A stretch of 64,000 nt of DNA. Origin: Druceiella hillmani. Its lineage: Eukaryota; Arthropoda; Insecta; Lepidoptera; Hepialidae. Below, one piece after another: positions 6,913-63,100 of the stretch (position 1 is its first letter; each line of letters begins with the position of its first letter). The stretch lies in contig JAYKKI010000133.1 of assembly GCA_039881145.1 (NCBI GenBank), forward strand, positions 2,746,501 through 2,810,500, given 5' to 3'. The translations under genes were made by a program, and so were the position numbers. The notes beneath the pieces are model-generated. The model was not told where the DNA came from. It searched no databases and worked only from the letters and a program-made list of their open reading frames with translations.

Positions 6913-7031
6913 ATTGTCAAATGCAGTATGTTATCTTGCTGAAATAATGTCTGATAACGAATTATCTTGATTTCTTAAAAGATATCAAAAATAGTATAAA
7001 AGTGGATAACCCAACAAAATCAGGCTATCAT

Positions 7032-7420
7032 ATGAAATTAATTTATAAAATTGTTTGCTACAGTATAGTTATTGCTATATACGTCAGCTAAGGTACACAT
7101 ATGAAATTAATTTATAAATTTTTTTGCTGTAGTATTGTTACTGCTATATACGTCAGCTAAGGTACACATATGAAATTAATTTATAAAATTGTTTGCTGCA
7201 GTATAGTTATTGCTATATACGTCAGCTAAGGTACACATATGAAATTAATTTATAAATTTTTTTGCTGTAGTATTGTTACTGCTATATACGTCAGCTAAGG
7301 TACACATATGAAATTAATTTATAAAAATGTTTGCTGCAGTATAGTTACTGTTATATACGTCAGCTGTGGTACATATGTGAAATTAATTTATAAAAATTTA
7401 TGCTGCAGTATATTTACCGA
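7032..7420. repeat. 69-bp tandem array, about 5.6 copies, ABAB pattern
   Basis: ATGAAATTAATTTATAAA recurs at 7032, 7101, 7170, 7239, 7308 and (as GTGAAATTAA) 7377, exactly 69 bases apart each time. Copies 2 and 4 appear identical over the unit, and copies 1 and 3 differ from each other by one base but from 2 and 4 at several positions. The array therefore has a 138-bp higher-order unit. Copy 5 is more diverged and copy 6 is truncated. The array starts about 120 bases after the end of the transposase relic, so it may be its 3' subterminal region. Confidence 0.95.
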
Positions 7421-7429
7421 ATTTTACTA

Positions 7430-7985
7430 ACCTATAGATTTGCTTTCTATGCTTTCTATACCTATGCAACTCTAGATGTGGCCTTGTTCTATCACGGCGC
7501 GTAAGCACGGCGCAGCCCATCGTGGTTGCCTGACCCACTTGGTTAAGTTTAAAAAGAAAGCATAGATTTAAAAATAAACACAACACTTATGCGTCATAAA
7601 TTCAGACTCTGCAATTATTTTTAGCAATTTCTCAAACGAATATCCTTTTATAATTAAATTTAGTCAAAACATCGTTTCGTAATTGTTGACTTGAAAATTT
7701 TATAAAAATGAACTCTGACCGCGAAAAAATGCCACATAAATCACATTTAAGCTTGTATGATAATTGAATTAATTAAAATGAAATGTTTTACGCCGTAGTT
7801 CAAGGTCGCCAAGATGAGACTTATTTCGCACGCGATGTTTGTATTTCGGGTATTGACAAACCATTTATTTACTGGGTATTGATATTTATGTCAGAAATTA
7901 CCACAGGTTATATGCTATAATATGTTTCTGATTTAATCTAAATATATATATATATATTGTTTTCTAGAAGTATTTTCGAAACATG
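7430..7985. other. Non-coding stretch with a GC-richer island
   Basis: Bases about 7470-7545 are clearly GC-richer than their surroundings. On the minus strand they lie in an open frame of 62 codons that I cannot assign. A short (TA)n run is at 7941-7957. Nothing else is recognisable. Confidence 0.4.
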
Positions 7986-21069: not shown

Positions 21070-21578
21070 TTGCAACAGAAACCAAGTCTAACAAAATAAT
21101 TTAATCAAATGTTTGTTAAGTCAGAAAATAAAACGCCATAATGTTCTATTTCAAATATGTAGTGATATTCTGAATAACTGAAATCAGAATTTCGTAATCT
21201 GAGAGTAATTAGGCTACAATCACTATAAATTATTTTTTAATCTCTTGTCAGTATTATGAATTCCAAGTTTCCTTCAAAGCGGTTTCACATTTTGTACAAA
21301 CCAGTTCCAAATCATATAAAGTGACTTGCAAATTCCAACTTATCGTTATGATGTGGGATATGTAGCAATGAAGTCAAAAATTTTAATATTACTACCCAAG
21401 GAAATTACAGGAAAACCGAAAATTTAAAAAAAATTGTATTCATAACTTCGCAAAAAAGGCTTCAAATAAAATAAAAAAAGCTTGGATTTTGTACCTTTCA
21501 ACAATTTATTTAGACGTTTTATCTACTGCTTTTACAGAGTTACAAATTAGAAAGTGAAATTAAAATAATTCCAGCTTA
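21070..21578. other. Non-coding stretch
   Basis: Nothing recognisable between module C copy 1 and the first foldback element. Confidence 0.5.
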
Positions 21579-21643
21579 ATTTTGTTCACAATTAAATGAA
21601 AAGACGTGATGTAGTATTATTTTTAATTTTTTTAAGTTCTTTA

Positions 21644-21684
21644 CCACGATCTAGGTTTCGTTATATTACAACATCTTCAGCCGA
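21644..21684 (-). ncRNA. Hammerhead-ribozyme-like core, M1 left arm
   Basis: Minus strand: CTGAAGA, then a stem GTTGT/ATAAC with a 3-base loop, GAAA, CCTAGA, TC, GTGG. Helix II and all core bases are kept. Helix I (TCGG against GTGG) and helix III (CC against GA) are damaged, so activity is doubtful. Confidence 0.45.
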
Positions 21685-21706
21685 TGGCCGATCTTTTGCT
21701 AATAGC

Positions 21707-21744
21707 CCACCTGAAGATGTAAAACAACGAAACCTAGGTTGTGG
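21707..21744 (+). ncRNA. Hammerhead-ribozyme-like core, M1 right arm
   Basis: CCAC, CTGAAGA, shortened helix II (three bases lost relative to the consensus), GAAA, CCTAGG, TT, GTGG. Core bases and helix I are intact; GTT is still a permissible cleavage triplet. The short helix II may impair folding. Confidence 0.45.
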
Positions 21745-21844
21745 TAAAGAACTTAAAGGAAGTAGAAATATTACTACATTACGTAGTTTCATTTAATTGT
21801 GAATAGTGAGTTTCTACAAAATTAACGCCAAATATATTCAATAT

Positions 21845-22895
21845 AATTTTGTTCTCAAAACATTTCAGAAATTGTTTTCCTTACAAACTATTGATTGTAT
21901 ATTAAAGTGCAAAAGATTGTCTTTAATTTTGTATATATCAATAATTTTAAAATAATTTTTGAGGATTTATTCGTTTTTTAACTAAATTTTTTTAATTTAA
22001 ATGCTCATATTTTAAAAAATAATTGTCTGATTCCTCAGAACATTTTCACATGTCTAATATTAAAAAAACTAAAGAATCATAATAATTTGTCCAAAATTTT
22101 TTTAGACCGAGAGAAGCAAAAAAAATAGGGAAAGAAAATTACAAAATTTATGTACGAAAATATTTTTTTGTTTCAAAAGGTTTTTCAATTTGGAAAATTC
22201 TTGAGAAATGTGCAAAAAAGAGTGGCATTGTATCTATACTAGAAAGCCATGGAACAAATTTTAATTTTTTAGTATAATTTTTTTTAATTTGGAAGCCTTT
22301 TTTATTACGTACGAAATTTATCAGTTTCACTGTACCTAGTAACAAACGTTCACTTCCTCCGTTACTTTTATATTTTTCAACTCAAATTAATCGAATTTAA
22401 ACCAAGTAACATAGTTATAATATTGATATAACTACTGATATTTTGCACTTAGATCTAGTATTATTCACTTACAACATCACCGTTAACTCCAATTTTATAG
22501 TTGTTATAAATAATTATAGCAGATAATTTTTGACATAAAATGAATCAATGTTACTATTAACGAATAATGAAAACCATCCAATAAATCCAGCTTATATAAA
22601 CACAACTTGTTTAATAGCATGTATTATAATACTACATTTTAAAGTGTCAATGAATTGAAATCATTCTGTATTTTTCATTTTATTACAAATTTAACTTCAT
22701 TCCTTTTAGTATTGAAAAAAAAACGGAAATGATAAATTGAAAAGGAAAAGAATGCCGCATTATAAGTAATTAAATATAAAATTATATGTAATCCGAAGTT
22801 AAATATATTAAAAGTATTAAACCTTAACTCTGAATTGGAAACTTTTATATTTTAACCAAATAACGTTATTTCTTACGACTGTTAAGAAAAGACTA
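21845..22895. other. Non-coding stretch
   Basis: AT-rich, no gene or repeat recognised. The minus-strand frame at 22148-22345 has no motif. Confidence 0.5.
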
Positions 22896-23061: not shown

Positions 23062-23216
23062 ATAACCTAACCTAACTTAACCTAACATAACAATACCTAA
23101 TATAATCTAACCCAACATAACTTAACCTGCTCTGACCTGATCTGACATAACCTAGCCTAACTTAACTTGACCTAACCTAACATAACCTAATCTAATCTAA
23201 TCCAATTTGACTTAAC
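23062..23216. repeat. Degenerate CCTAA (TTAGG-complement) tract
   Basis: About 155 bases made of pentamers CCTAA, CTTAA, CATAA, TCTAA and CTGAC in register-shifted succession. I count eight exact CCTAA units. This is the C-rich strand of the insect telomere motif, strongly mutated. Confidence 0.8.
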
Positions 23217-28650: not shown

Positions 28651-30574
28651 GACATATACATATACCATACCCACATTGTGACGCTTTTCCACAAATGAAC
28701 ATTTATTTTACTCACAATTCATAATTATTATCCGAGTATAGAGACTAGCTTAATTTTATTTCCGTAGTCATGAGCTTAATGTAAAGAAACACTATAGTGT
28801 TATCGTAATCCTAATTTCTGTTAAACGCGAATAGCGAAAGTTTAAAATAAACAATCTATACAAAACAGATAAACATACGATTGTACATTAATAAAACTTA
28901 TGATCATATCGCTTTTTTCTTTTTGATTTACTTTTTTTTTCAAACTATTATCACATAACCTTCTAATCCATAGTATATACAATAAATTTTCCTCATAAAT
29001 ATTTATATTTCTTTGACTTCATTGAAATATTTTAACGATTTAATGATATGTACATAGAAGAAAAAATTTGGATGTGAGATTAAATATTTTACTGATACGC
29101 CCAGGAGAGCTCATGGTTTTAAAAATTCGTGACAACGCAGGCTACAGGATATGGGAAAAAGCAATACGATGACTTTTCAAGCGTTACCATAAAAATTAAA
29201 TGCTTAAAATAGTATAACATGATCATGTAATGTGATCACATAATTTGATGCGAAATGTCATACAGATTTTGAAACCTGCCAAAGCTAATGTTGCAAGGCA
29301 GGATTTTGTAATAACTCTGATTCAAATACATAAAAAATTAAAAGTGAGCAAAAGCGCCTCGTTTTTCCTTAACGCTTTCCTTAGATGCAACGAGTAACAA
29401 TATTTCCTGAACCAATGCTGATGTTGTTTTATTTGTTCGGTTTGGTATTTATTATTGAATTATCTATGGACGATATCTGAATTAATTATAAAAAGTGGTA
29501 AAAAAGATAGATTTTAAAAACTTATCCGATGGTGCACACTACCTGTTATACGTGATGTAAAGTTTTGGCCCATATTTTAAAATTTATGGAATGTTACATC
29601 ATGGAAATTGTATTACGAATTAATTGACATCTACGAGTATGTGCAAAATTTCATTAAATAAATCTAAAACTGTAGAAACTGTAGACGAACTCGAGAGGAT
29701 TAGTTGTATAAAATGAATAGTAAAAATTATACGCAAAAATGCTTGACATGCTTTTTTATTTTCAATAATATTTAAAAATTAATTAAATCTAATATCTCAG
29801 AAAATAATGTAATATATAATTTGGTGTATATCGTGCTGTGGCAAAAATTATATGGACAGCAGTCATCTACTGTAGAATCGTATTAGCGCAGATTCGTTAA
29901 TTTATAAACGTACCTTAGCATCTAGGGTGGAGTTATTCCATCTGTCATGACGAAATTATTTCAAAAAAGGAGGTTGTGTACTCATTTCACAAACGAGAAA
30001 ATATTTTTATCTAATTGTATATTTAGGGATGCTTCTGTTGTAACGTAGTGCTTTTGATGTTGAATACCAAAACATTAATATGCACATGTACCAAAATTAG
30101 AAAGAAAATCTTTTGCATCTAAACTTGCTTTGGAAATAACAGCGGCCCATTTTATGATATGTAGTTGAGTTTGTAAAAAGATCATAGAAAATTCAAAGCA
30201 GTAACTTACATCAACTGCAAAAGTAACTCTACATTTTAAAATGTATTCTTACGTGGTTAAAATTTATATTAGGCAATATATGATGAGAAATAACATTTTT
30301 AAATATTTACGTTATGAAAAATTAAATGTTATAAGGAATTTAAAAGAAATACTATTTTCCCTTAAACGGTTATGAGTGCCTAAATATGTACGTAACTCTC
30401 GTAGTTCAAGTTTTACTCATACTTGAGACCTTTTTAGATACTCTAATAATAAAACCTACTCCGCTCCCCTACAATAAACTCGTTAACACAAGCAGTGGGA
30501 AAACCCACACAGACTCGGCTTCCACTGTTGTGTTTGAAACATATAAATGCTGTTGGATGTTCCTAAGAGTTATT

Positions 30575-30660
30575 CTTTGCTAATATCCCACCTGAAAATG
30601 TTGAAATCCAACGAAACCTAGGTCGTGGTTAATAATATATCACGTATTTTCATTTATTTG
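30575..30660 (+). mobile_element. Half-copy M4 of the foldback element (right arm only)
   Basis: Only the right-arm sequence is present: TTTGCTAATATCCCACCTGA, CAACGAAACCTAGGTCGTGG and, more diverged, ATCACGTATTTTCATTTA. No left arm precedes it, so it cannot form the long hairpin. Confidence 0.85.
30588..30628 (+). ncRNA. Hammerhead-ribozyme-like core, M4
   Basis: CCAC, CTGAAAA, helix II GTTG/CAAC with a 5-base loop plus one bulged base, GAAA, CCTAGG, TC, GTGG, 41 nt in all. Helices I and III are intact, but the conserved G of CTGANGA is A here, which should abolish catalysis. Confidence 0.5.
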
Positions 30661-31975
30661 TCTAGAATTATTTCATTTAACTTGCATTAACAAGTTCAAA
30701 AGGTATGGATGCTTTACTTTATGCCCACGATCCTTTATGTCTATCCCTATTTGAATGTGGTTGGCTTTTTTTTTAATATATACATAAACATACATTGCAT
30801 TTCACTTATAAACATAAACATACATTGCATTTCTATCAAAACTATTTACAAACGGTACAATTATTTGTAACGTGTTAATGTATCGGCTAAGTAAATCTTT
30901 TACGGATATGATCATGTTTAATTATATTTTGCTTTGAATTACTAAATATGTTTTGCTTTCCATTACTAAGCACTCTATCTAGAAAATATATTATTCATGA
31001 ATAATTATAATATTTATACAAATATCCTAGATGTAACCTGACAGTGACACGGAGTATGCAATACATGAAATACACACGCATGATCTAATTATTATTTTTC
31101 TACTCTTTTTATGTAAAAGTCTTAAAATATTCTCGTATTAACTGGCCATTTTAATTGTAAAACGTAAAACGATTATTAAACATTACGAGTGACATTCTCA
31201 TTCCCAAAGCTCTCAATCATTTCTTTCAATCTACTTATTTATAATCTAATCCTATGAATTCGTGGATTTTTTTGAGGTAAGGAAAGAGACTTCCATTCCA
31301 CTCCATTGCTAAATAGAGCTAAATAAAATATTAAGGTCTGTCGGAAACTTGATAAGCTTTTTAATAAATTACAACTTTTAAAGCCGCTTTGCCAGGGCGT
31401 TGCTGCAGAGGTTACGAAACAATTGGAGAACGTACAAGTTCAACGCACACTCTTGGTCAATGAATGGCCAAAATTATTTTTTGTTTTTTCTTTTACAACC
31501 GTAATAAATTTTTAATTAAAGAATTGAGATAAAGTAAATGCCGAATGTAAACATTCTTCTTAAAACCTGGGTGGAAAAGTTGCCATGTTTTTTATCGGCC
31601 ATAATTATTGAAGACAATAAATAGATTTACGTGAAATGTGTTGCTATATTAAGTATTTCTATTGTAAATTTTACACAACAGTTTTCCTACATGTGGTATT
31701 CTTATGTTTTGAAATTTATAACTTCTAATATGTAATAGGCCTTATGATTTTTATGAAATAATTTATATTTTAAATTAAATTATGACGTATCGATTGGCTC
31801 CGAGATGGTGCATTTTCACTTTCGAGTTTCCATTAGCAATCGATAACAGCTTAAAACTTTAGTATATTTAAATGTTAGAATAAACAAATTTTAATAGACC
31901 TAGAGTAGAGGTTTGACTACACCTTGGCTTACTGCAATCAGCACAAAATTATGGCAATAAAAAATTTTAAGGCCA
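30640..31975. other. Non-coding stretch
   Basis: A 22-base string ACATAAACATACATTGCATT(TC) is directly repeated at 30782 and 30812. Bases about 31382-31470 are GC-richer than the surroundings without an assignable frame. Otherwise nothing recognisable. Confidence 0.4.
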
Positions 31976-31979
31976 ATCG

Positions 31980-32318
31980 TCTTTTTTTTAAAATATTGAT
32001 CCTACGAATAATTTATGTAGACAAATGTAATTATTTTCAGAAAAATTAATAAGTTGGAATTTTCTTGTAAAACAATTATTACTAAGAATTTTTTTTAACT
32101 TCGAAAAAGAAATTAATCCCGTCTTTTAATTTATATGATGTATTTCATATCATTAATTTAATCCCGCCTATTTCAAGTCTTGTCTCTGCACTAGTAATTT
32201 TAGTGTAAACAATCTGACATACATTTTATATCATATTTTGGTGTTCACATTTTCTAATGTTGATGTATAATTAATTTTATAATTATTATTTCAGCCACCT
32301 ATTTTTCTACACTATTGA
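31980..32318 (+). repeat. Segment X, copy 1 (flank duplicated with the mariner)
   Basis: This non-mariner flank matches 49660-49975 in order and orientation (landmarks GAATTTTTTTT, TTCATATCATTAATT, GACATACATTTTA, TGTATAATTAATTT, CAGCCAC). Together with the mariner fragment that follows it forms a unit of about 0.95 kb present twice. Confidence 0.88.
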
Positions 32319-32321
32319 AAT

Positions 32322-32890
32322 ATTAGGCTGGCAATTTATAAGTCTGCCACTTTTTTCGAGGGATTTCTGGAATGTTGCGGAAGCTTCTAGAATGTTCCTT
32401 GTAGGGTATATAAAGAATGCGGCATTCAAACTTCTGTTCAGTTTGCAATTTAGTTATCGGCGAGTTAAGAATAAATGAAAAATGGAAGTATTTCGAAGTA
32501 AACTTAGAGAACTCTTTCTTCATGAATGTCGTTTAAGGTGAAAAATCAGCGAATCATCACGCAATACATACACAACGAAGGGAGAAGGTATTCCCTCTTC
32601 CAATACAACCAAGCACTGGTTTTAAAGATTCAAAAAAGGAAATTTTGATCTGTCCGATAAACCTCATTCAAAAGACTCCCAACAATTGATTTAAAAGCCT
32701 TATTGAAACCTATCCCAAATTAAGTTAGCGTTATTTTGCAGAGATCCTTTCATGATCTTATACCACAATGGGACAATAATTTCATGCTTTGAGAAAGAAG
32801 TGGAAATATTCCATTTGTCTACCACATGACTGACACTAAAGGAGAGCTAGTGTGTGCTTGGTGCACATAAATTGCAAAGAAATTTAGAGG
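32322..32890 (+). pseudogene. Truncated mariner transposase, copy 1
   Basis: A degraded terminal repeat (TTAGGCTGGCAATTTATAAG) at about 32323 is followed by an ATG at 32482 with MEVFRSKLRELFLHECRLR, then NTYTTKGEGIPSSNTTKHWF and RFKKGNFDLSDKPHSKD. This is the HTH DNA-binding half of a mariner transposase: the W-F-x-R-F-x-x-G-(N/D)-F-D-L-x-D-x-P-(R)-S string is diagnostic. A later block reads FHALRKKWKYSICLPHD, matching the K-W-V-P-H-x-L linker. Three or more stops interrupt it. The DD34D catalytic half is missing. A small hairpin with 12-base arms (CAAGATTGTGGC, 32896-32924) follows. Confidence 0.85.
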
Positions 32891-41822: not shown

Positions 41823-44345
41823 TTAACCCATTCCTTCCCGCTGTCCTATTTTTAGGATCCTATATTAGTTTTTTTTCACCAAACATAATTATTATAATAA
41901 ATATATTTTTTGGTAGTAAAATATGTTCACATCATTTTAATATACTTTTTTTTAAATTGAACCATTTTGTTGCGTTAAAAAGAGCACAAATTTTTATTTA
42001 TATTTAAAAAAAATAAATACTTAGCTCAAAGTACATAAAACAATTCTGAGACCTATACTTAATACATAGTAACATAAACAGGATACAAAACATATTTTGG
42101 AAACAATTTATGTGATTTCGAAATGAATCGCACTGTAAATATGTGTTTATTATTTGGCGCCAAAACATGATCAATTCTGTGCACGAGCAAGTTCAAACTT
42201 GTCAATAACATTAGTTGATAAGTTTACATCGAACACAGTACATCTCGTGACATGGCTGTGATTTTACATAAATAATTGTGTGTGAATTATTGACAAAAGT
42301 AACAAAATATATTTTGTTTTTGTAGCAAATGGTAAACCTATTTATTATTTGATAAGTATTTTATATATTTTTATACTTTCACAGATCATGAACCCAGTGA
42401 AAAGAAATATGAAAAGGCGTTGAATGTGTCCGAAATCGTTGAATATCTTCAAGATATCGAATATTTTAGTGATGAGGATATGGACGATATTGAAATTGCT
42501 ATATTGCCTCCAGACGAAGTGTTTAAATGAATGATATGGAAGAGGGTCCTGATGACGATATGGAAGGTTTTCCGATTTCAGATGTGGCCGGTCAAGTGGA
42601 ATTTTCATATACTATTGATAACGTCGAGGATGGTCGTTCTGTATAAGTCGCAACTCGAAGTAAGACGGTAACTTGGCGTAAGTGTGACCCAGTTTATTCC
42701 AAAATATAAAGTGAGCCGGACACCGCTAAACAATGTTAAAAAAACATGATTACGCAGTTGGAAGAAAAGTCAGGAGAGAGATATTTGAAAAATTCTTATC
42801 TGACGAGATTTTACAGCATATTGTGAAAGAAAAAGTTACCTATGCCAATAATTATAAAAATAATTTAATCTTCAATCTAACCATGTAGGAGTTATTTTTC
42901 TCTTCGTATCACCACTTGCCTTAAAGCAATTTTATTGGTCTAGGAATGAATACGTACACCTTCCACTTCTTTAAAAAGCAATGTCAAGAAATCGTTTTGA
43001 TAAAATAAAATGTTTTGTATTTCAATGCCAACTCGAGAATTCATAACGCTGATAAAGCCATATATTCGGCTATATGTATACGCCCATTTGTCTCTATATA
43101 TATTCGCCCATTTATCGCTAAAGCTAATGAATCATTTCGAAAGTTTTGGATATTTGAAACCAATTTAGCTGTTGATGAAATGATGGTAAAATAATTTAGT
43201 CATCATGGGATAAAACAATTTATAAAAGCAAACAAGTCAGTTTCGGATGCAAGTTTTGGGCTCTATGTCGAGTCAGCGGTTTATGTTATAATTTTTCACT
43301 ATATATAGGCTAGGATACTCAAATATCGGATAACGGTGATTTAACCTTAAGAGAAGAAAAAAGTTGCTTGATGTGTGTACGGATCCCAGCACGCATGTGA
43401 TATATTTCGACAACTTTTTCAGCTGCATGCAATTATTGTTTGATTTGAAATGTCAAGGGTGTAGAGCTATGGGCACAGTGAGGAAATATAGGACTAAAAG
43501 ATGCCCCGTCATGCCCAAAACAAGAAATAAAAAAAAGGAGCGAGTTTATTCCGATCATTGTTTTGATAAATACAATGAAATATTATGTGTGAAATGACAT
43601 GACAACAATGTAGTATGTCTTTTAACTAATTTCGATATTGCTTAACCTTTTGTGAAAATTAATAGATATACAAAGACAGAAAAGGCCAAAGTGACCGTAA
43701 ATCTACAAGACGTATAAATAATTATTACAAATATAAGGGAGGAGTTGATAAACATGACCACCAACCAGGTAAATAAAGATGAAACTATCCCTTTGCTAAA
43801 TTTTAGGCGAAGGGTTTGCTTATCTTCGATGAAAAAATCAGAAGGGGGGGGCGCAAGTAAACCTACTCCGGAGTCTTCCGAAGTTCTTTCACAACCAGTC
43901 AGATTTGATAATTTGGGTTACTATATGATGAAGAGAGACAAAACAGAGGTGTTGCCAAGGACAAGATTGTAAAAAAACCTTTAACTTTTTATGAAAAATG
44001 CTATAAAAAACTTTGCAGTTTTTGTTTCATACCATATCACAGGAAATAAGTTTATTTACATCTACTTACTTTTCTACTTCTTATTTTTTAAAATGTTTAT
44101 GAGGATGATTTGAAAATAAACTTGATTTCCTTATAATTCTGATCTTTTTTAATTTCTGACATATGTTCCCACTCTCATATTTACAGGACAGGCTGTTACA
44201 GCAAGTAGTGATATATATAATATTAAATGATCCTATTAATTTGATATTTTATTAGTTCAATAAAAATAATTATTTAAATGACGGTTTTATATTTTTTTCA
44301 AAAATCGTAACCTAAGTGGGTGATATAAAGTTTCAAAATGTATTT
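41823..44345 (+). mobile_element. piggyBac element (decayed)
   Basis: The 5' end is visible: target-site-like TTAA at 41823-41826 followed by CCCATTCC and CGCTGTCCTATTTTTAGGAT, the type of terminal sequence found in PGBD-like piggyBac elements. The transposase pseudogene follows. The 3' end is not certain; a degraded match (CCTAAGTGGGTGA) near 44322 is only suggestive, so the right boundary is approximate. Confidence 0.7.
42372..43970 (+). pseudogene. piggyBac transposase pseudogene
   Basis: In order, across frames: an acidic N-terminal segment KKYEKALNVSEIVEYLQDIE followed by YFSDEDMDDIEIAILPPDE (42400-42528); KAMSRNRFDKIKCF (about 42975-43020); VDEMMV followed by HHGIKQFIKANK (43171-43233); FGCKFWALCRVSG (about 43240-43275); DPSTHVIYFDNFFS, then GCRAMGTVRKYRTKRCP and KKKERVYSDHCFDKYNEILC (43383-43597); YYKYKGGVDKHD (43723-43758); LLNFRRRVCLSSMKK and VRFDNLGYYMMKRDKTE (43790-43950). 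The three catalytic Asp codons all survive: VDE at 43174, FDN at 43409 and GVD at 43747. The spacing of the first pair (about 78 codons) equals that of the founding moth element. Many stops and frameshifts occur, and about 70 residues are missing between GGVDKHD and LLNFRR, so the protein is dead. The C-terminal Cys-rich domain is not recognised. Confidence 0.9.
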
Positions 44346-48774: not shown

Positions 48775-48960
48775 TATTGAGAATATTATTTGAAACGCTT
48801 CAGTTGAATGTAATGCATAAAAATAAATTGATTTCTTGTTTTGTTTAAAACTTCAGTAAAATAAGGTTTTTTAAAATGATATTTTGTTTACATAGATTAG
48901 ATTGGTTAACTTTTAATATCGAGATAATTATTAAAGTGACTTGTTATTTTCTAACTATCC
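48775..48960 (-). repeat. Module B, copy 4, distal part
   Basis: On the minus strand this matches the end of module B (landmarks GTGACTT region, AAGTTAACCAATCTA, CATTACATTCAACTGAAGC). The rest of this B copy lies at 51130-51720, so the intervening block is an insertion. Confidence 0.82.
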
Positions 48961-48964
48961 TTTT

Positions 48965-49620
48965 TTCAACCGATTTCTGGAATGTTATAAACATTTCTTG
49001 AATATTTCTTATAGGGTATATAAAGAGTGCGGTATTCGAACTTCTGTTCAGTTTGCAGTTGAGTAATTGGTGAGTAAAGAAAAAATTAAAAATGAAAGAA
49101 GTAAATTTAGGGGACTCTTTCTTAATGAAAATTGTTTAGGACAAAAAACCAGTGAAGGATCATACAATATATACACAACGACAAGTGAAGATGGCATATA
49201 ATATATTCACTCTCTTACGACACAGCCAAGCAGAGGTTTAAAAAAATTCAAAAAAGAGAATCTTTACCTGTGCGATAAATCTTATCCAAAGAGACTCCTT
49301 ACGACTGATTTAGAAAAATTTAAAAGCCTTATTGAAACAAATCGCAGATTTAGTTCGCGTTGTTTGGCAGAATTATTTTCATGCTCTTATGTTTCAACGA
49401 AAGAAGAAGACATGTTTTGAAAGAAAAGTGGAAATATTCCGTTTGGCTACCACATGAGTTAATACAATTTCAACTTCAGAGGAGATCTAATGTGTGCTTG
49501 GAGCCACTGGATTCCCTTCATACAAACGAGACTTAAATATCTGGTTATATGAGATGAAAGTGCTTAGCTTAATGGAATTTTTAACGCTAGTGACTAGGGG
49601 CTGTAGGAAAACTATAACAA
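48965..49620 (+). pseudogene. Truncated mariner transposase, copy 2
   Basis: Similar to 32340-32890 along its length (GGGTATATAAAGAGTGCGG, AACTTCTGTTCAGTTTGCAG, the R-F/KKFKKENL-type string, and then WKYSVWLPHELIQFQLQRRS followed by NVCLEPLDS, clearer than in copy 1). The W-L-P-H-E-L motif is intact here. The terminal repeat is missing at its left end, so the copy begins inside the element at the junction with module B. The catalytic half is not recognisable. Confidence 0.83.
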
Positions 49621-49659: not shown

Positions 49660-49975
49660 AATATTTTATGTAGATAAATGTGATTATTTCAGAAAAGCAA
49701 ATAAGTTAAGATTTTCTTGAAAAACAATTATTGCCAAGAATTTTTTTTTAATTTCGAAAAAAAATCCCATCTTCTAATTTATAACATGAATTTCATATCA
49801 TTAATTCAATTCCGCCTCTTTTAAGTTTTGTCCCCAAACTTATTATTTTAGTTTTAAAAATCTGGCATACATTTTACATCGTCCTTTGGTATTCATATTT
49901 TTTAATGTTTATGTATAATTAATTTCGTAATCAATATTGCAGCCACATATTGGCGGATAGTGTTAAAATATTAGG
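49660..49975 (+). repeat. Segment X, copy 2
   Basis: Direct repeat of 31980-32318, placed between the two mariner fragments. It shows that mariner plus flank were copied as a unit rather than by two independent transpositions. Confidence 0.88.
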
Positions 49976-50705
49976 TTTGTAACTCATAAGCTCGTCACTT
50001 TTTTCGACCGATTTTTGGAATTTATAGCAGCTTCTAAAACATTTCTTTTAGAGTATACAAACATTGCCGCATTTGAACTTCCGTTCAGTTTGAAGTCAAG
50101 TAATTGACGAGTAAAGAATAAATTAAAAGGAAGTATTTCGAAGTGAACTTGGAGGGCTCTTTCTTCATGAATATCAGTTAGGCCGAAAAATCAGCAAAGT
50201 GTCGCGCAATAAATACACAATGATGGGTGAACGCATGGCCTCTAACGATACAGCCAAGCACTAGTTTCAAACATTCAAAGAAGGGAATTTTAACCTATCA
50301 GGAAAACTTCATTCACTTCCTACAATTGATTCAAAAACTTTAAAGGCCTTATTGAAACAGGCCCCAGATTAAGTTCACGTTGTTTGGTGGAGCTATTTTC
50401 ATGCTCATATATGGCAATGTAAAAATAATTTCATGCTTCGAGAAAGAAGTGGAAATATTCCATTTCGATACTATATGAGCTAACACCTTTTTTACTTCAG
50501 AGAAAAACTTATATGCGCTTGGAACTACTGAGTTCCCGTCATGCCAATAGTAGGCTAAAGTATTTGTATATAGAAGATGAAAATTGAAAAAGTGTACCTA
50601 GACCAAAATATAAAATTGGAGAAAAGATACTTTTGATTGCATGGTGGGGTATAAATGGAATTGAATTATTCATTTTTAATTCTTTAAACCACCGTCACCG
50701 CTAAG
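49976..50705 (+). pseudogene. Truncated mariner transposase, copy 3
   Basis: Terminal-repeat-like ATTAGGTTTGTAACTCATAA at about 49968, then the same HTH region as the other two copies. It also keeps part of the catalytic half: SRHANSRLKYLYIEDEN (about 50538-50582), equivalent to the R-H-x-N-x-R-F-L-x-R-I-V-T-G-D-E-K-W block with the first Asp present, and KILLIAWWGINGIELF (about 50625-50670), where the second catalytic Asp of W-W-D is Gly. Several stops. Ends before the third Asp. Confidence 0.85.
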
Positions 50706-52430: not shown

Positions 52431-52496
52431 GGTTTTGTTCACAATTAAATAAAACTACGTGATGTAGTATTATTTCTACTTTCTTTAAGTTCTTTA

Positions 52497-52537
52497 CCAC
52501 GATCTGGATTTCGTTGTATTACAACATCTTCAGGCGG
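52497..52537 (-). ncRNA. Hammerhead-ribozyme-like core, M2 left arm
   Basis: Minus strand, 41 nt: CCGC, CTGAAGA, perfect 5-bp helix II (GTTGT/ACAAC, loop AAT), GAAA, helix III TC/GA with a CA loop, cleavage triplet ATC, GTGG. Helix I pairs with one G-U. All invariant core bases (CTGANGA, GAAA, UH) are present. Relative to the consensus CC/GG, helix III here is TC/GA, a change of both sides of one pair that keeps pairing. Confidence 0.68.
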
Positions 52538-52584
52538 GCTATTGGCAAAGATTACTAATAGCCTACCTGATCTTTGCTAATAGC

Positions 52585-52625
52585 TCACCTGAAGATATTG
52601 TAATGCAACGAAACCTAGGTCGTGG
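52585..52625 (+). ncRNA. Hammerhead-ribozyme-like core, M2 right arm
   Basis: 41 nt: TCAC, CTGAAGA, helix II ATTGT/GCAAC (one mismatch, one G-U), GAAA, CCTAGG, TC, GTGG. All invariant bases present; predicted cleavage after C 52621. Helix III is two pairs plus the A-U pair with a 2-base loop, or an intermolecular duplex through the self-complementary CCTAGG. Confidence 0.68.
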
Positions 52626-52929
52626 TAAAGAACTTAAACAAAATAGAATTAACACTACATCACGTAGTTTTATTTAATGTGAATAATGTATTTTTACAAA
52701 ATTAACGCCAAGTATATTCAAAAGTTTCGTTATTAATTAAGTCTGTTTCGGTACATATTAAACCCTTTATTTAAAAAAAGTCACTTGAAAATGAACATTC
52801 GGTTTTATTTAATTCCTAATAATTTTCAATATGTTTTCATTAGGCTTACAAAATAACATGTTTGGAAAATGAAATACACACAAAAATTATCATATAAGGT
52901 TTTTATCTATTTTTTAATTGTAATATTTT

Positions 52930-53040
52930 CTATTAGCCAACCTGAAGATGTTGTAATACAACGAAACCTTGATCGTGGTAAAGAACTTAAAGTAAGTCGA
53001 AATAATACTACATCACATAGTTTCTTTTAATAGTGAAAAA
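52930..53040 (+). mobile_element. Half-copy M5 of the foldback element (right arm only)
   Basis: Contains the right-arm landmarks TTGTAATACAACGAAACCTT, GATCGTGGTAAAGAACTTAA, ACTACATCACATAGTTTCTT. No matching left arm precedes it. Lies about 210 bases after M2. Confidence 0.88.
52938..52978 (+). ncRNA. Hammerhead-ribozyme-like core, M5
   Basis: CAAC, CTGAAGA, perfect helix II GTTGT/ACAAC with AAT loop, GAAA, CCTTGA, TC, GTGG. Core and helix II are perfect. Helix III and one pair of helix I are weakened by substitutions. Confidence 0.6.
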
Positions 53041-59319: not shown

Positions 59320-59830
59320 TCAATGTTACCCGATTAAACCCATCCTAACCTAATATAATCCAATCACATGTAACGAAACCTAACACGATTTTATCCGACT
59401 ACCTCAACTTAACAAAAATATAATCTAATCTGTCCCAGCTCAGCTAAGCTCATTTAAACCAAACTAATTAAATATACCAAATTTAACTTTACATAACTCG
59501 ACCTTACTTAACCTTATGGAACAAACATAAACTAATTCAACATGTCCCAACTTAATCCATAATAACATAATCTAATATAACTCAACCTAACTGAAGGTGA
59601 TGTAACTAGAATGGGTTATCATTTTCAACTAATCTAATATGATGCAATCTAATTTAAGTTAACCCAATATAACCCTAAGTAACCGAATATATTCCAATAC
59701 AACCCAATGTAACCCAACCTAACTGAACATAGCCCAACTTAGTGCAACTTATTCCGACGTAACTCAATCTAACCTAACCCACCCTAACCGAATATAATTT
59801 TTCCTAACCTCATATGACGCAACTGTCATT
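59320..59830. repeat. Long degenerate CCTAA-type tract
   Basis: About 510 bases in which AACCTAA, AACCCAA, TAATCTAA, TAACTTAA and similar penta- to hexamers follow each other, interrupted by a few non-repeat stretches (for example around 59597-59625). Exact CCTAA units occur repeatedly. It ends 25 bases before foldback element M3. Confidence 0.8.
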
Positions 59831-59912
59831 TCATTATAAAAAAACATCTTTTTTTGACAATTAAATGAAACTACGTGATGTAGTATTATTTCTACATTCT
59901 TTAAGTTCTTTA

Positions 59913-59950
59913 CCACGAACTAGGTTTCCTTATATTACATCTTCAGGTGG
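59913..59950 (-). ncRNA. Hammerhead-ribozyme-like core, M3 left arm
   Basis: Minus strand: CCAC, CTGAAGA, shortened and unpaired helix II, GAAA, CCTAGT, TC, GTGG. Core and helix I are kept; helix II looks non-functional. Confidence 0.4.
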
Positions 59951-59986
59951 GCTATTTGCAAAGATTTTGCTAATAGACTTGACTTG

Positions 59987-60026
59987 CCACCTGAAGATGT
60001 GGTAATACAACGAAACCTAGGTGTGG
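59987..60026 (+). ncRNA. Hammerhead-ribozyme-like core, M3 right arm
   Basis: CCAC, CTGAAGA, helix II GTGGT/ACAAC with mismatch, GAAA, CCTAGG, T, GTGG. One base of the cleavage site (the H of UH) is deleted, so cleavage should be lost. Confidence 0.4.
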
Positions 60027-60124
60027 TAAAGAACATAAAGAAAGTAGAAATAATATTACATCACGTTGTTTCATTTAATTGTCAATAATGAATTTCTACA
60101 AAATTACTGCCAAATATATTCATG

Positions 60125-63100
60125 ATCTTTTTTCAAAAATAATACAGTTCCACCAGAGAAAGTGGCACTTGGAATTGTGGAACAATCCCTATCCTTTCTT
60201 GTCCATGTTCCTGCTCCGAATTCATGTATCACCTTCCTGAATTCAATTCAAAATAACTTTTATCTTAGCTTAAATAACGTTTGCATCACAAAAGTAAAAA
60301 TGCCTTGAAATTTTGAACTCATTGCTTAATTGTTAATAAGGAATTTCAAAATATTTAGGAAATTATTGATAAAATGTACTTAAAATTGTAACCTGTACTT
60401 CATATATTATTTCAGGTCAATTTTTTTTTTGTATAATTTTAGTTGTTTTAAGTAACGCTGGGGTAAACCAGCAAACAACTAATTAAACATCGAACAAATA
60501 AAAATGACCTTAATAAAATATTCGAAAGGGACAGACCGTCAAATTAAACCAAATTCCTCATTTGAATTCTGCAATTCGAATGATGGAAATGATTTATATA
60601 AGTCATTAAAATGGGAAAGAGCCAGTTTAGCACAAAAATATTTTGACAATTCTTCTGATTAGACATGGAAAAACGTACACTGAAAACGATGTATTTCTAG
60701 AAATGTATTGCTTCTCGTGATTATTCATTGAAATAAACATTAATTTGAACAAAAAATACTGACGAGAATTTTCTTCAGTTTATATAGAAATGTTAAGTGA
60801 AAATTTAGTTGACAGTTAAAAATTTCCAAAAATCGGAATAGCGACATAAATTTAAGACAGTAAAATATTTTTTTTAAAACCAATTTTTTTTTCGTAATTT
60901 AATATTTGTGTTAATTTCTATTTTTACCTTTTTTAATTACATTAAGTCATGTTATTTTGTTTTCCTTGTGCTTTTGTATATGTTAAATGTGTATTGATAT
61001 GTGTATGTAAATTTCAAGACGTATTTTGTGAATTTTTTTTTCAAATCAATGATTTTATAATGCGTAATTGCGAAATGCAATATATTTTTTTTGAAACGTC
61101 CTTTTTAATGTATGTCTTTTTTATGTCGTATCAAAATAATTGTCAAAATTTGATTAGTCCTAAACTGTATCTATGCCTCAAAATATGTTTTTAGTGATTT
61201 TCCTGAATATTTAACTACTTCCAAACGTTGTTAAATTAACCGCATGAGCTCGCGTGAGTCATAAAAAATACGGAAAGGAAATAAGTTTGAAAAATGGCGA
61301 TAATGGTTAAACTTTTAGAAAAATCAATATAACTGGTTCAAACTCTCTAACATTAGTTGAAGAAGTAAGGGGTAGCTATTATTTTAATACCGTTGTTCCA
61401 TAAATATTATGACTCCGTGCCACAGAATTTGACGATTTAATGAAAAGATGATTTTAGAAATTGTGTTTAACTTTAAAAATAATGTCATCACTTTGATTTT
61501 TTTATCACAATATTAATAAAAACATATATTTTAAAATTCCTGAACAGCAGGTGCGTGAAGCTGTTTTTTGATGGGAAATCTATATTCCCTAATTCCGGTC
61601 CTATTTATACAACCACTATTGTTTTTTAATAGGATAATATGTACTAGTCTATGAAATAAAAAGAAAACAAAAAACTGTTAGGAAATAAAAAAGTCATATC
61701 ATGAAATGAAAATATGAAAAAAAAATGCTGACAATTTTTTTTAGCTTATTGCCAGTATTGAGAAAAAAAGTCAATGACAAAATTACTGACAACAACAAAT
61801 ATGTACAAGTTCAAAAAAGTTAAATAAAAAAATTAATTAAAAAAAATGAAAGCCAAACACTGAAACAAAATTCTAATAATAATATTATTTTATAAACACA
61901 TACAAAACGTAAACAGATATATGAAACTCCTCCTGTGATTAGAAAAACCCTAAATTTCAAGAGGTGATTTGATATACAACGAAAGTAATTTGCGGAGAAC
62001 CTATTAAAATTATTTAACAATAGAATAAAATGAGCCAGTCGCCTAACTACAGTAAAAAATGTTTTATTAAGTCGCTAGTATATATTAAATATATCGCTCC
62101 ACATTTAATATCGGAATGTTATTGCATGTCATAATCGACACTAATAATATATTCTCATTGGAGAAAAATCGTTATTAAAACTTATTAAATATTGAGAATG
62201 TGAAATAATAAATATGTAAAATAATTAAAGATAGCAAAAATATATCAAAGCAATAAACTTAAACGACCAAGATTACAAACATTACACTTAGTATTGAAAC
62301 TAAAAATTCACACGACTTGAGCAAATGTTATAATCGAATAGCAAATATTCTTGAGATTTAACCAGATCAGAGAGTACGCTCCTTTATTGCGACCAAAGTA
62401 ATTTTGTCTCTTAATGTTTAGTTACGATCAATCGTAAGTCATATTAATGCTGTAATAAGCCAGTTACATTCCAATCGATAATAGGAATGGAATGTAAATG
62501 GCTATGTTGGCATATGCTGAATTTAAGGAACACACTTTACCAAATAATGTTTTATTAAGTATGAAAATTATCTAAAGTATCATACAGTACATTCAACTAA
62601 TATTATTTGCGGAGGTAGCAATATCTTCATTAAAATTAACAAAATATCATGCAAAAGAAAAATACGGAACCCGTGATATTCAAATTACAATTGTGATATT
62701 TTATACACGAAAACACAGATTCACATTAAATGTAGTTTATTGACAGCCTAAATATAATATCTATGCCGATAGAATGACATTTAGTCTGAAAAATTAAGTG
62801 GTCGTTTCATAATCGGCGTTTATTTCAAAGCAAAACATACCCACTGGGGTTCAAGGCACATGATTCCTAAATATCATTAATTATGCAATGGTGATTCAAG
62901 TTAAAGAGATGAATTCATTACCACTTGAAAACCAATGTGATTGTACACTGATTCCGTTAAAGTTTCAGTTTTGACATTTTTCTTTAGTCAAAAACATTCC
63001 ATCAAATTACATAAAAATAGAACAACCTCTTAGCTAAAAAATGGATAACTCTAAGATATATTTGATAAACAGTTATAATTTACCTGTTATATAGTAATAC

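Follow-up and report, generated by a model that had tools for sequence, protein, structure and literature searches.

The window analysed here, a stretch of 64,000 nt from the moth Druceiella hillmani (contig JAYKKI010000133.1, positions 2,746,501 to 2,810,500), contains a two-armed inverted repeat, M52, whose arms each carry a 41-nt motif resembling a hammerhead ribozyme (Table 1). Eight such arms lie at five places in the window: two each in M52, M21 and M59, and one each in H52 and H30. A sequence-only reading of the same DNA had described M52 as a foldback transposon with twin hammerheads, one on each strand and in each arm. Both motifs are present in that arrangement, all the invariant core bases are found in both, and the bases given as the first after each predicted cut, 52622 (+) and 52500 (-), are correct. 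The paired helix II that had been claimed for both is complete in the minus-strand motif; in the plus-strand motif the core-adjacent pair is an A-C mismatch, so that only the minus-strand motif fits the full descriptor. The statement that the combination recurs in five copies was too strong. The eight arms do lie at five places and the core is intact in six of the eight, but the whole motif, even with U10 allowed, is found in only one, the left arm of M52. In the right motif of M59, C17 has been lost. Elsewhere, the window contains a transposase fragment at 43340-43594 (+; Pfam DDE_Tnp_1_7, E 1.4e-7), which we take to be of piggyBac type, and degenerate TAACC/CCTAA arrays at 23063-23200 and 59326-59828, presumably comparable to insect telomere-type repeats. 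A tandem array with a 69-bp unit (about 5.6 copies, 90% matches) occupies 6960-7485, and two members of a dispersed repeat family, at 32110-32829 and 49758-50478, are about 78-79% alike over some 700 bp, with an additional partial copy at 48960-49526.

Table 1. Positions of the hammerhead-bearing arms and associated features in the window (PLE, Penelope-like element)
Feature	Position	Strand	Description
M52, left arm	52440-52552	-	antisense PLE end, from CACAATT to GCAAAGAT
Hammerhead motif, M52 left arm	52497-52537	-	complete with U10 allowed; predicted cut 52501/52500
M52, central filler TACTAATAGCCTACCTG	52553-52569		9 nt are an exact copy from the arm's own 5' region
M52, right arm	52570-52683	+	sense PLE end, from ATCTTTGC to GTGAA
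Hammerhead motif, M52 right arm	52585-52625	+	core intact; A-C mismatch at 10.1-11.1; predicted cut 52621/52622
M52, tail of 37 nt	52684-52720	+	at the right end only
H52, single decayed arm	52923-53037	+	hammerhead at 52938-52978; one mismatch each in helix I and helix III
M21, second two-armed copy	21588-21843		11-nt target duplication TAATTTTGTTC at 21577-21587 and 21844-21854
M59, third two-armed copy	59855-60122		9-nt repeat ATCTTTTTT at 59846-59854 and 60125-60133
H30, remnant of a parent PLE 3' end	30500-30662	+	G8 replaced by A

The identity of the arm emerged from the host assembly (2.59 Gb in 181 contigs). A search for GIY-YIG endonucleases gave two matches, L049, where the domain (Pfam E 2.5e-8) is flanked by two inverted arms, and L048, which has no arm. 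With the 121-aa frame of L049 as query, the best 150 of 6151 first-look candidates were scored; the arm was present at 29 of the 30 PLE endonuclease loci that were fetched (L059 is the exception), mostly about 600 nt beyond the endonuclease and in the same orientation. An unmodified 864-aa frame at one of the loci contains both a reverse transcriptase domain (RVT_1, 3.8e-14) and a GIY-YIG domain (4.3e-4), the latter at 21.0 bits and thus slightly below the Pfam cut-off of 22.6. This frame has 86 relatives, the majority unnamed and some with generic names alone. The named ones belong to insects (butterfly, moth, beetles, damselfly and dragonfly) and include proteins of Parnassius, Phthorimaea, Anthonomus, Diabrotica, Coccinella, Aquatica, Ischnura and Ladona; one partial protein labelled bacterial (MAG) is also among the relatives. 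Judged by homology and domain order, the arm forms one end of an abundant PLE that has reverse transcriptase (RT) and GIY-YIG domains, and M52 consists of two such ends joined head to head. Several features by which PLEs are recognised were found here: RT and GIY-YIG in one ORF, pLTR-like ends with an optional tail of 30-40 nt, short target duplications and, on inspection, AT-rich flanks. In H30, the stretch before ATTCTTTGC matches the sequence that lies upstream of the arms in the PLE loci; its segment 30574-30662 is an arm with an internal deletion, in which TAATAATATATCACG directly follows GTGGT.

The head-to-head arrangement is not peculiar to the small copies. Among the best 150 of the 6151 candidates, all 25 PLE pairs less than 10 kb apart are head to head, none tandem and none tail to tail. 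Three dimers (L081-L083), fetched whole, have arms of unequal length that are 99.2-99.7% identical over 1.3-2.35 kb, and in each of them the match runs through the tail in only one of the two arms. The mini copies have the geometry of these large dimers, shortened to ATCTTTGC. A separate PLE lineage on contig C73 (L051 and L052) has an endonuclease about 18% different from the abundant one, and its hammerhead looks weaker because the tailed arms carry C-U in place of G-C at 10.1-11.1.

The anatomy of the mini copies was studied in a sample of 42, chosen for similarity to M52 (two-armed, uncut). A genome search with M52 yielded 3657 first-look candidates, from which the best 40 places, the window's own included, were taken; the sample consists of the 39 remaining places, fetched with their flanks, together with M52, M21 and M59. 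Target duplications of at least 8 nt (8-15 nt, mode 12) border 29 of the 41 measurable copies, compared with 4.8% among 1640 mismatched flank pairs; for M52 no clear duplication was seen, the longest match being 5 nt. The tail of about 37 nt is found at one end in 38 copies, at both ends in four and at neither end in none. In the left arm of M52, CACAATT would be the inner start of reverse transcription and GCAAAGAT would correspond to the RNA 5' end. With one mismatch allowed, ATCTTTGC is reached by both arms in 38 of the 42 copies, by one arm in three and by neither in one (M21). The 38 central fillers measure 8-29 nt and comprise 37 distinct sequences, and 27 of them hold at least 8 nt of the arm, in sense (13) or antisense (14) orientation, a proportion that falls to 1.7% in shuffled fillers. 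In four centres (L027, L020, L033 and L044) the filler reaches past the first 20 nt of the arm or appears composite, which suggests repeated template jumps. Left and right arms diverge by 0.078 within a copy and by 0.084 between copies (permutation p 1e-4), although this effect is small, since the right arms of different copies are even closer to one another (0.075; left arms 0.091). At two diagnostic sites, 7 of 10 and 8 of 14 copies that carry the minor variant show it in both arms. The centre therefore seems hardly to be inherited, and the arms of a copy tend to come from like templates; taken together, the copy-specific centres and the like templates make each copy look like an event of its own.

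The 84 arms of this sample give a consensus in which the hammerhead is complete, extra U10 included: CCAC CUGAAGA U GUUGU AAU ACAAC GAAA C CUAG G UC GUGG. It comprises a helix I of 4 bp, a helix II of 5 bp and a helix III made of an A-U and a C-G pair closed by a palindromic CUAG loop. The scored core consisted of C3 U4 G5 A6 N7 G8 A9, G12 A13 A14 A15.1 and U16.1 H17, and a full motif also had at least 3 bp in helix I, at least 4 bp in helix II and both pairs of helix III. On this basis 61 of the 84 mini arms have an intact core, 49 retain the adjacent pairs as well and 38 show the full motif. Among arms at PLE loci, the core is present in 36/40 and the full motif in 33/40 (32/36 and 29/36 once four repeats are discounted). 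The core bases are less variable than the outer arm (2.4% vs 4.5%, p 0.002), which is partly a composition effect, but the direction is the same for A/T (1.2 vs 2.0%) and G/C (4.5 vs 7.3%) considered separately; the stems change as quickly as the outer arm (5.4% vs 4.5%, p 0.14). Run over one strand of 644 Mb of Markov sequence, the full descriptor gave 28 matches, which corresponds to about 0.006 expected matches per window on both strands. A pure chance match is ruled out by this rate together with the arm at 29 of 30 PLE loci and the intact PLE arms. Pattern scans of viral and genome contig collections and a phage search returned no match.

The extra U between A9 and helix II, on which the sequence-only reading was silent, is present in each M52 motif. 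A published filter that asks for formed core-adjacent pairs and no insertion in the core (PMC3088659, in the available text) would reject the consensus as written: the adjacent pairs are formed, but U10 is inserted. In a viroid hammerhead that has an A at the position of U10, exchange of this A for U raises trans-cleavage 3-4-fold according to the accessible part of the report (PMC3705267), so that the extra U is compatible with activity. The Rfam covariance models, proposed earlier as a check of the motifs, gave no match above threshold wherever they were run, an outcome that the sequence-only reading had named as refuting, and support for the hammerhead consequently does not come from Rfam. 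Over the entire window nothing reached the gathering score, and the segment 52400-53060 (661 nt) gave 13 matches with E up to 10, none of them a hammerhead. For the plus-strand arm of M52 alone, Hammerhead_1 was the sole match (11.4 bits, E 3, cut-off 34), and the minus-strand arm alone and H52 alone gave no hammerhead match. The best RF00163 score in any sequence run was 16.6 bits, for a PLE arm (E 0.058, 61 nt, cut-off 34). MicroRNA models matched the full hairpin, all below cut-off, which we think reflects the hairpin shape. Covariation is slight: the eight window arms contain one double change (equalled in 198/500 shuffles), their percentage paired and covariation score were equalled in 21/500 shuffles, a result that kinship alone can produce, and the 84 arms contain only two pair-keeping double changes.

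Fold predictions agree with the earlier proposal that the long hairpin would compete with ribozyme folding. In the M52 transcript, whose full hairpin is very stable in prediction, enforcing a hammerhead costs 57-60 kcal/mol, and a transcript of M52 is therefore predicted to form the long hairpin and no active ribozyme. A source RNA with a single arm would escape this hairpin, but its predicted best fold is still not a hammerhead, as is the case for all eight window arms folded singly (gap 4-13.5 kcal/mol). In the hammerhead satellite of cave crickets, as far as the available text goes, the hammerhead was the first-choice fold in 33/198 sequences and 146/198 were able to fold so (PMC2837043). 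Taken together, the motifs are likely to be real PLE hammerheads, incomplete in most of the window copies, and we treat them as putative ribozymes.

Evidence of another kind came from the ends of insertions. The genome was searched with a foldback pattern in which both arms reach GTGG with 3-33 nt between them. This pattern gave 101 foldbacks reaching the predicted cleavage site, and the reversed pattern gave none. Among the 50 listed of these 101, mechanical scoring placed both arms exactly at the cut in 18, one arm in 14 and neither in 18; three of the 18 with both arms at the cut were set aside by eye (uncut arm, T for C17), leaving 15. The 100 arm ends of the 50 listed foldbacks fall at offset 0 in 50 cases, at +1 in three, at +2 in 10 and at +3 in eight, and from +4 to +12 the mean is 2.3 per position. 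By eye, about 40 of the 100 ends remain at the cut, and those set aside include three near-identical loci on contig C19. The GTGG pattern is blind to ends short of the bond, and the 33-nt spacer limit favours short extensions while hardly favouring offset 0 over offset 1. The accumulation of ends at the scissile bond is possibly a record of hammerhead cleavage of template RNAs in vivo. M52 itself falls into the uncut class, because both its arms span the cleavage site and its templates would accordingly have been left whole. The suggestion that the hammerhead is of the Penelope kind is supported by these insertion ends at the predicted cut, together with the complete consensus and the arm at 29 of 30 PLE endonuclease loci.

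These observations can be brought together in a scheme of insertion. With reasonable confidence, M52 can be regarded as a Penelope-like mini-insertion with hammerhead-bearing ends head to head, which likely arose when both target strands primed cDNA synthesis on short element RNAs. The element protein would open an AT-rich site with a stagger of about 12 nt, and each target 3' end would then prime a cDNA inside the RNA, one starting at the tail's outer end and its partner about 37 nt further in. Each cDNA would extend as far as the 5' end of its RNA. For 38 of the 42 copies, M52 among them, this end would be ATCTTTGC, probably the transcription start; in the other class it would be the base just past the hammerhead cut, the source RNA having been cleaved after the UC of CCTAGGTC. 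One cDNA end would often fold back and copy up to about 20 nt of itself, after which the two cDNA ends would be joined and the filler left behind. Such a protein activity has a precedent in PAc of Anolis carolinensis, which, in the portions of the report available, cleaves both strands of the target and extends them in vitro, prefers AT-rich DNA and initiates reverse transcription within the RNA at a pair of adjacent sites delimiting the tail (PMC11167929). The more specific proposal, to which we give a little better than an even chance, is that the foldback centre marks the template 5' end in two classes (transcript start and hammerhead bond), that the hammerhead cuts in germ cells and that cut and uncut RNAs both serve as templates. 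Under this two-class model, capped 5' ends should lie at ATCTTTGC and those with a 5'-hydroxyl at GTGGTAAAG. The hairpin arrangement would thus stem from the mode of element insertion. The sequence-only reading had called a hairpin with one ribozyme per strand unusual; the arrangement is real, but it follows from head-to-head PLE ends, which have already been published for Penelope (PMC3846280, as far as the accessible text goes).

Other origins of the hairpins were weighed against this scheme. The foldback class given in the sequence-only reading would make M52 an ordinary DNA transposon of the MITE type, moved as DNA by a transposase, with an accidental likeness to a hammerhead. Long inverted arms, the very stable predicted hairpin and the DDE transposase fragment elsewhere in the window would suit it. 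It is nonetheless refuted by the arm at L049 and at 29 of 30 PLE loci, that is, by an arm that is the end of an RT/GIY-YIG element, so that M52 consists of paired Penelope-like ends and we give a MITE almost no credence. The inverted repeats also lack what defines a transposase-moved MITE, a duplication of fixed length: target duplications vary in length, the tail is one-sided, and the centres differ in nearly all copies, yet the arms share source variants. Old foldback lineages whose arms are homogenised may also account for the pattern, since the likeness between the arms of a copy is small and the right arms of different copies are closer (0.075). A second mode of synthesis, in which one cDNA folds back and is copied into the second arm, has been proposed, on an antisense template, for the head-to-head Penelope repeats of Adineta vaga (PMC3846280, in the text available). 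The arm copies in 27 of the 38 fillers speak for self-priming and indicate that fold-back probably occurs at cDNA ends, in either orientation, and the unequal long arms of the large dimers also fit. The simple form of this explanation is opposed by the restart of the second arm at ATCTTTGC after the filler in 38 of the 42 mini copies and by different variants in the two arms of some copies, part of which may be later mutation (the background transversion rate in the arms is 1.3% overall and 1.6% at G/C sites). As the origin of the second arm, self-priming thus appears unlikely.

The remaining alternative accepts the PLE end but denies it ribozyme activity, the ends at the cut site being stops of the reverse transcriptase or re-joining at a weak spot. 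Rfam scores below threshold, weak covariation and poor predicted folding all agree with an inactive motif, as does the anole PLE, for which the available part of the report describes no reads at the presumed cut (PMC11167929). On the other hand, half of the 100 ends in the 50 listed foldbacks lie at the predicted scissile bond by mechanical scoring (about 40 by eye), whereas blockage by either helix III or helix I should put the ends at another base, and the core bases vary less than the outer arm, in part through composition. We consider an inactive motif improbable, and continue with the reading in which PLE ends carrying putative ribozymes are inserted by two-sided priming.

Comparison with known systems places the element close to the Penelope of Adineta vaga, which, in the accessible text, likewise combines RT and GIY-YIG, has inverted pLTRs, most frequently arranged head to head, a tail of 31 bp at one of these pLTRs, target duplications of 8, 9 and 10 bp and palindromes at the inverted junction (PMC3846280). 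The differences are that copy numbers are described there as very low, whereas first-look counts here run to thousands; that many copies here consist of two bare ends; and that antisense self-priming is favoured there, whereas the filler and end data here favour two separate cDNAs (PMC3846280, same text). The word hammerhead is absent from that text. PAc, a Poseidon element, resembles the present one, in the available portions of its report, in the internal starts of reverse transcription at two adjacent tail-bounding sites, the cutting and extension of both strands in vitro, the AT-rich targets and a PLE hammerhead, whose cleavage is dispensable for insertion in vitro (PMC11167929). Its genomic copies are described as tandem repeats, and no reads ending at the hammerhead cut were found for it (PMC11167929), whereas here none of the 25 close pairs is tandem and some insertions appear to end at the cut. 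The minimal type I hammerheads of PLEs and Terminons share, in the excerpts available, the CUGANGA/GAAA core, the very short helix III and the position in the pLTR, but here there is an extra U between A9 and G10.1 (PMC6155905; PMC7761336; PMC7229834). Metazoan retrozymes, too, are short non-coding elements with a type I hammerhead, but are described in the accessible text as direct tandem repeats with circular RNAs, whereas the inverted pairs here would derive from linear RNA ends (PMC7229834). A retrozyme was rejected as a candidate, as all 42 copies, selected with a two-armed query, have inverted arms and none of the 25 close PLE pairs is tandem. In LINE-1 twin priming, an inversion arises when each strand of the target primes a cDNA, which is an occasional event at the 5' end. 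Here, in contrast, priming on two strands seems to be a common outcome. A survey of literature on foldbacks and inverted PLE repeats, made up mostly of papers outside subscription, yielded no description of the mechanism proposed here; the novelty would lie in the two proposed classes of template ends and in the evidence for two-sided priming.

If foldback centres are template 5' ends, the same reading accounts for the existence of hairpins that carry one hammerhead on each strand, and insertions in the genome can be used to test how Penelope elements join DNA. Counts of genomic insertions would then measure cleavage without experiment and, if this is true, the genome would be a readable record of ribozyme action.
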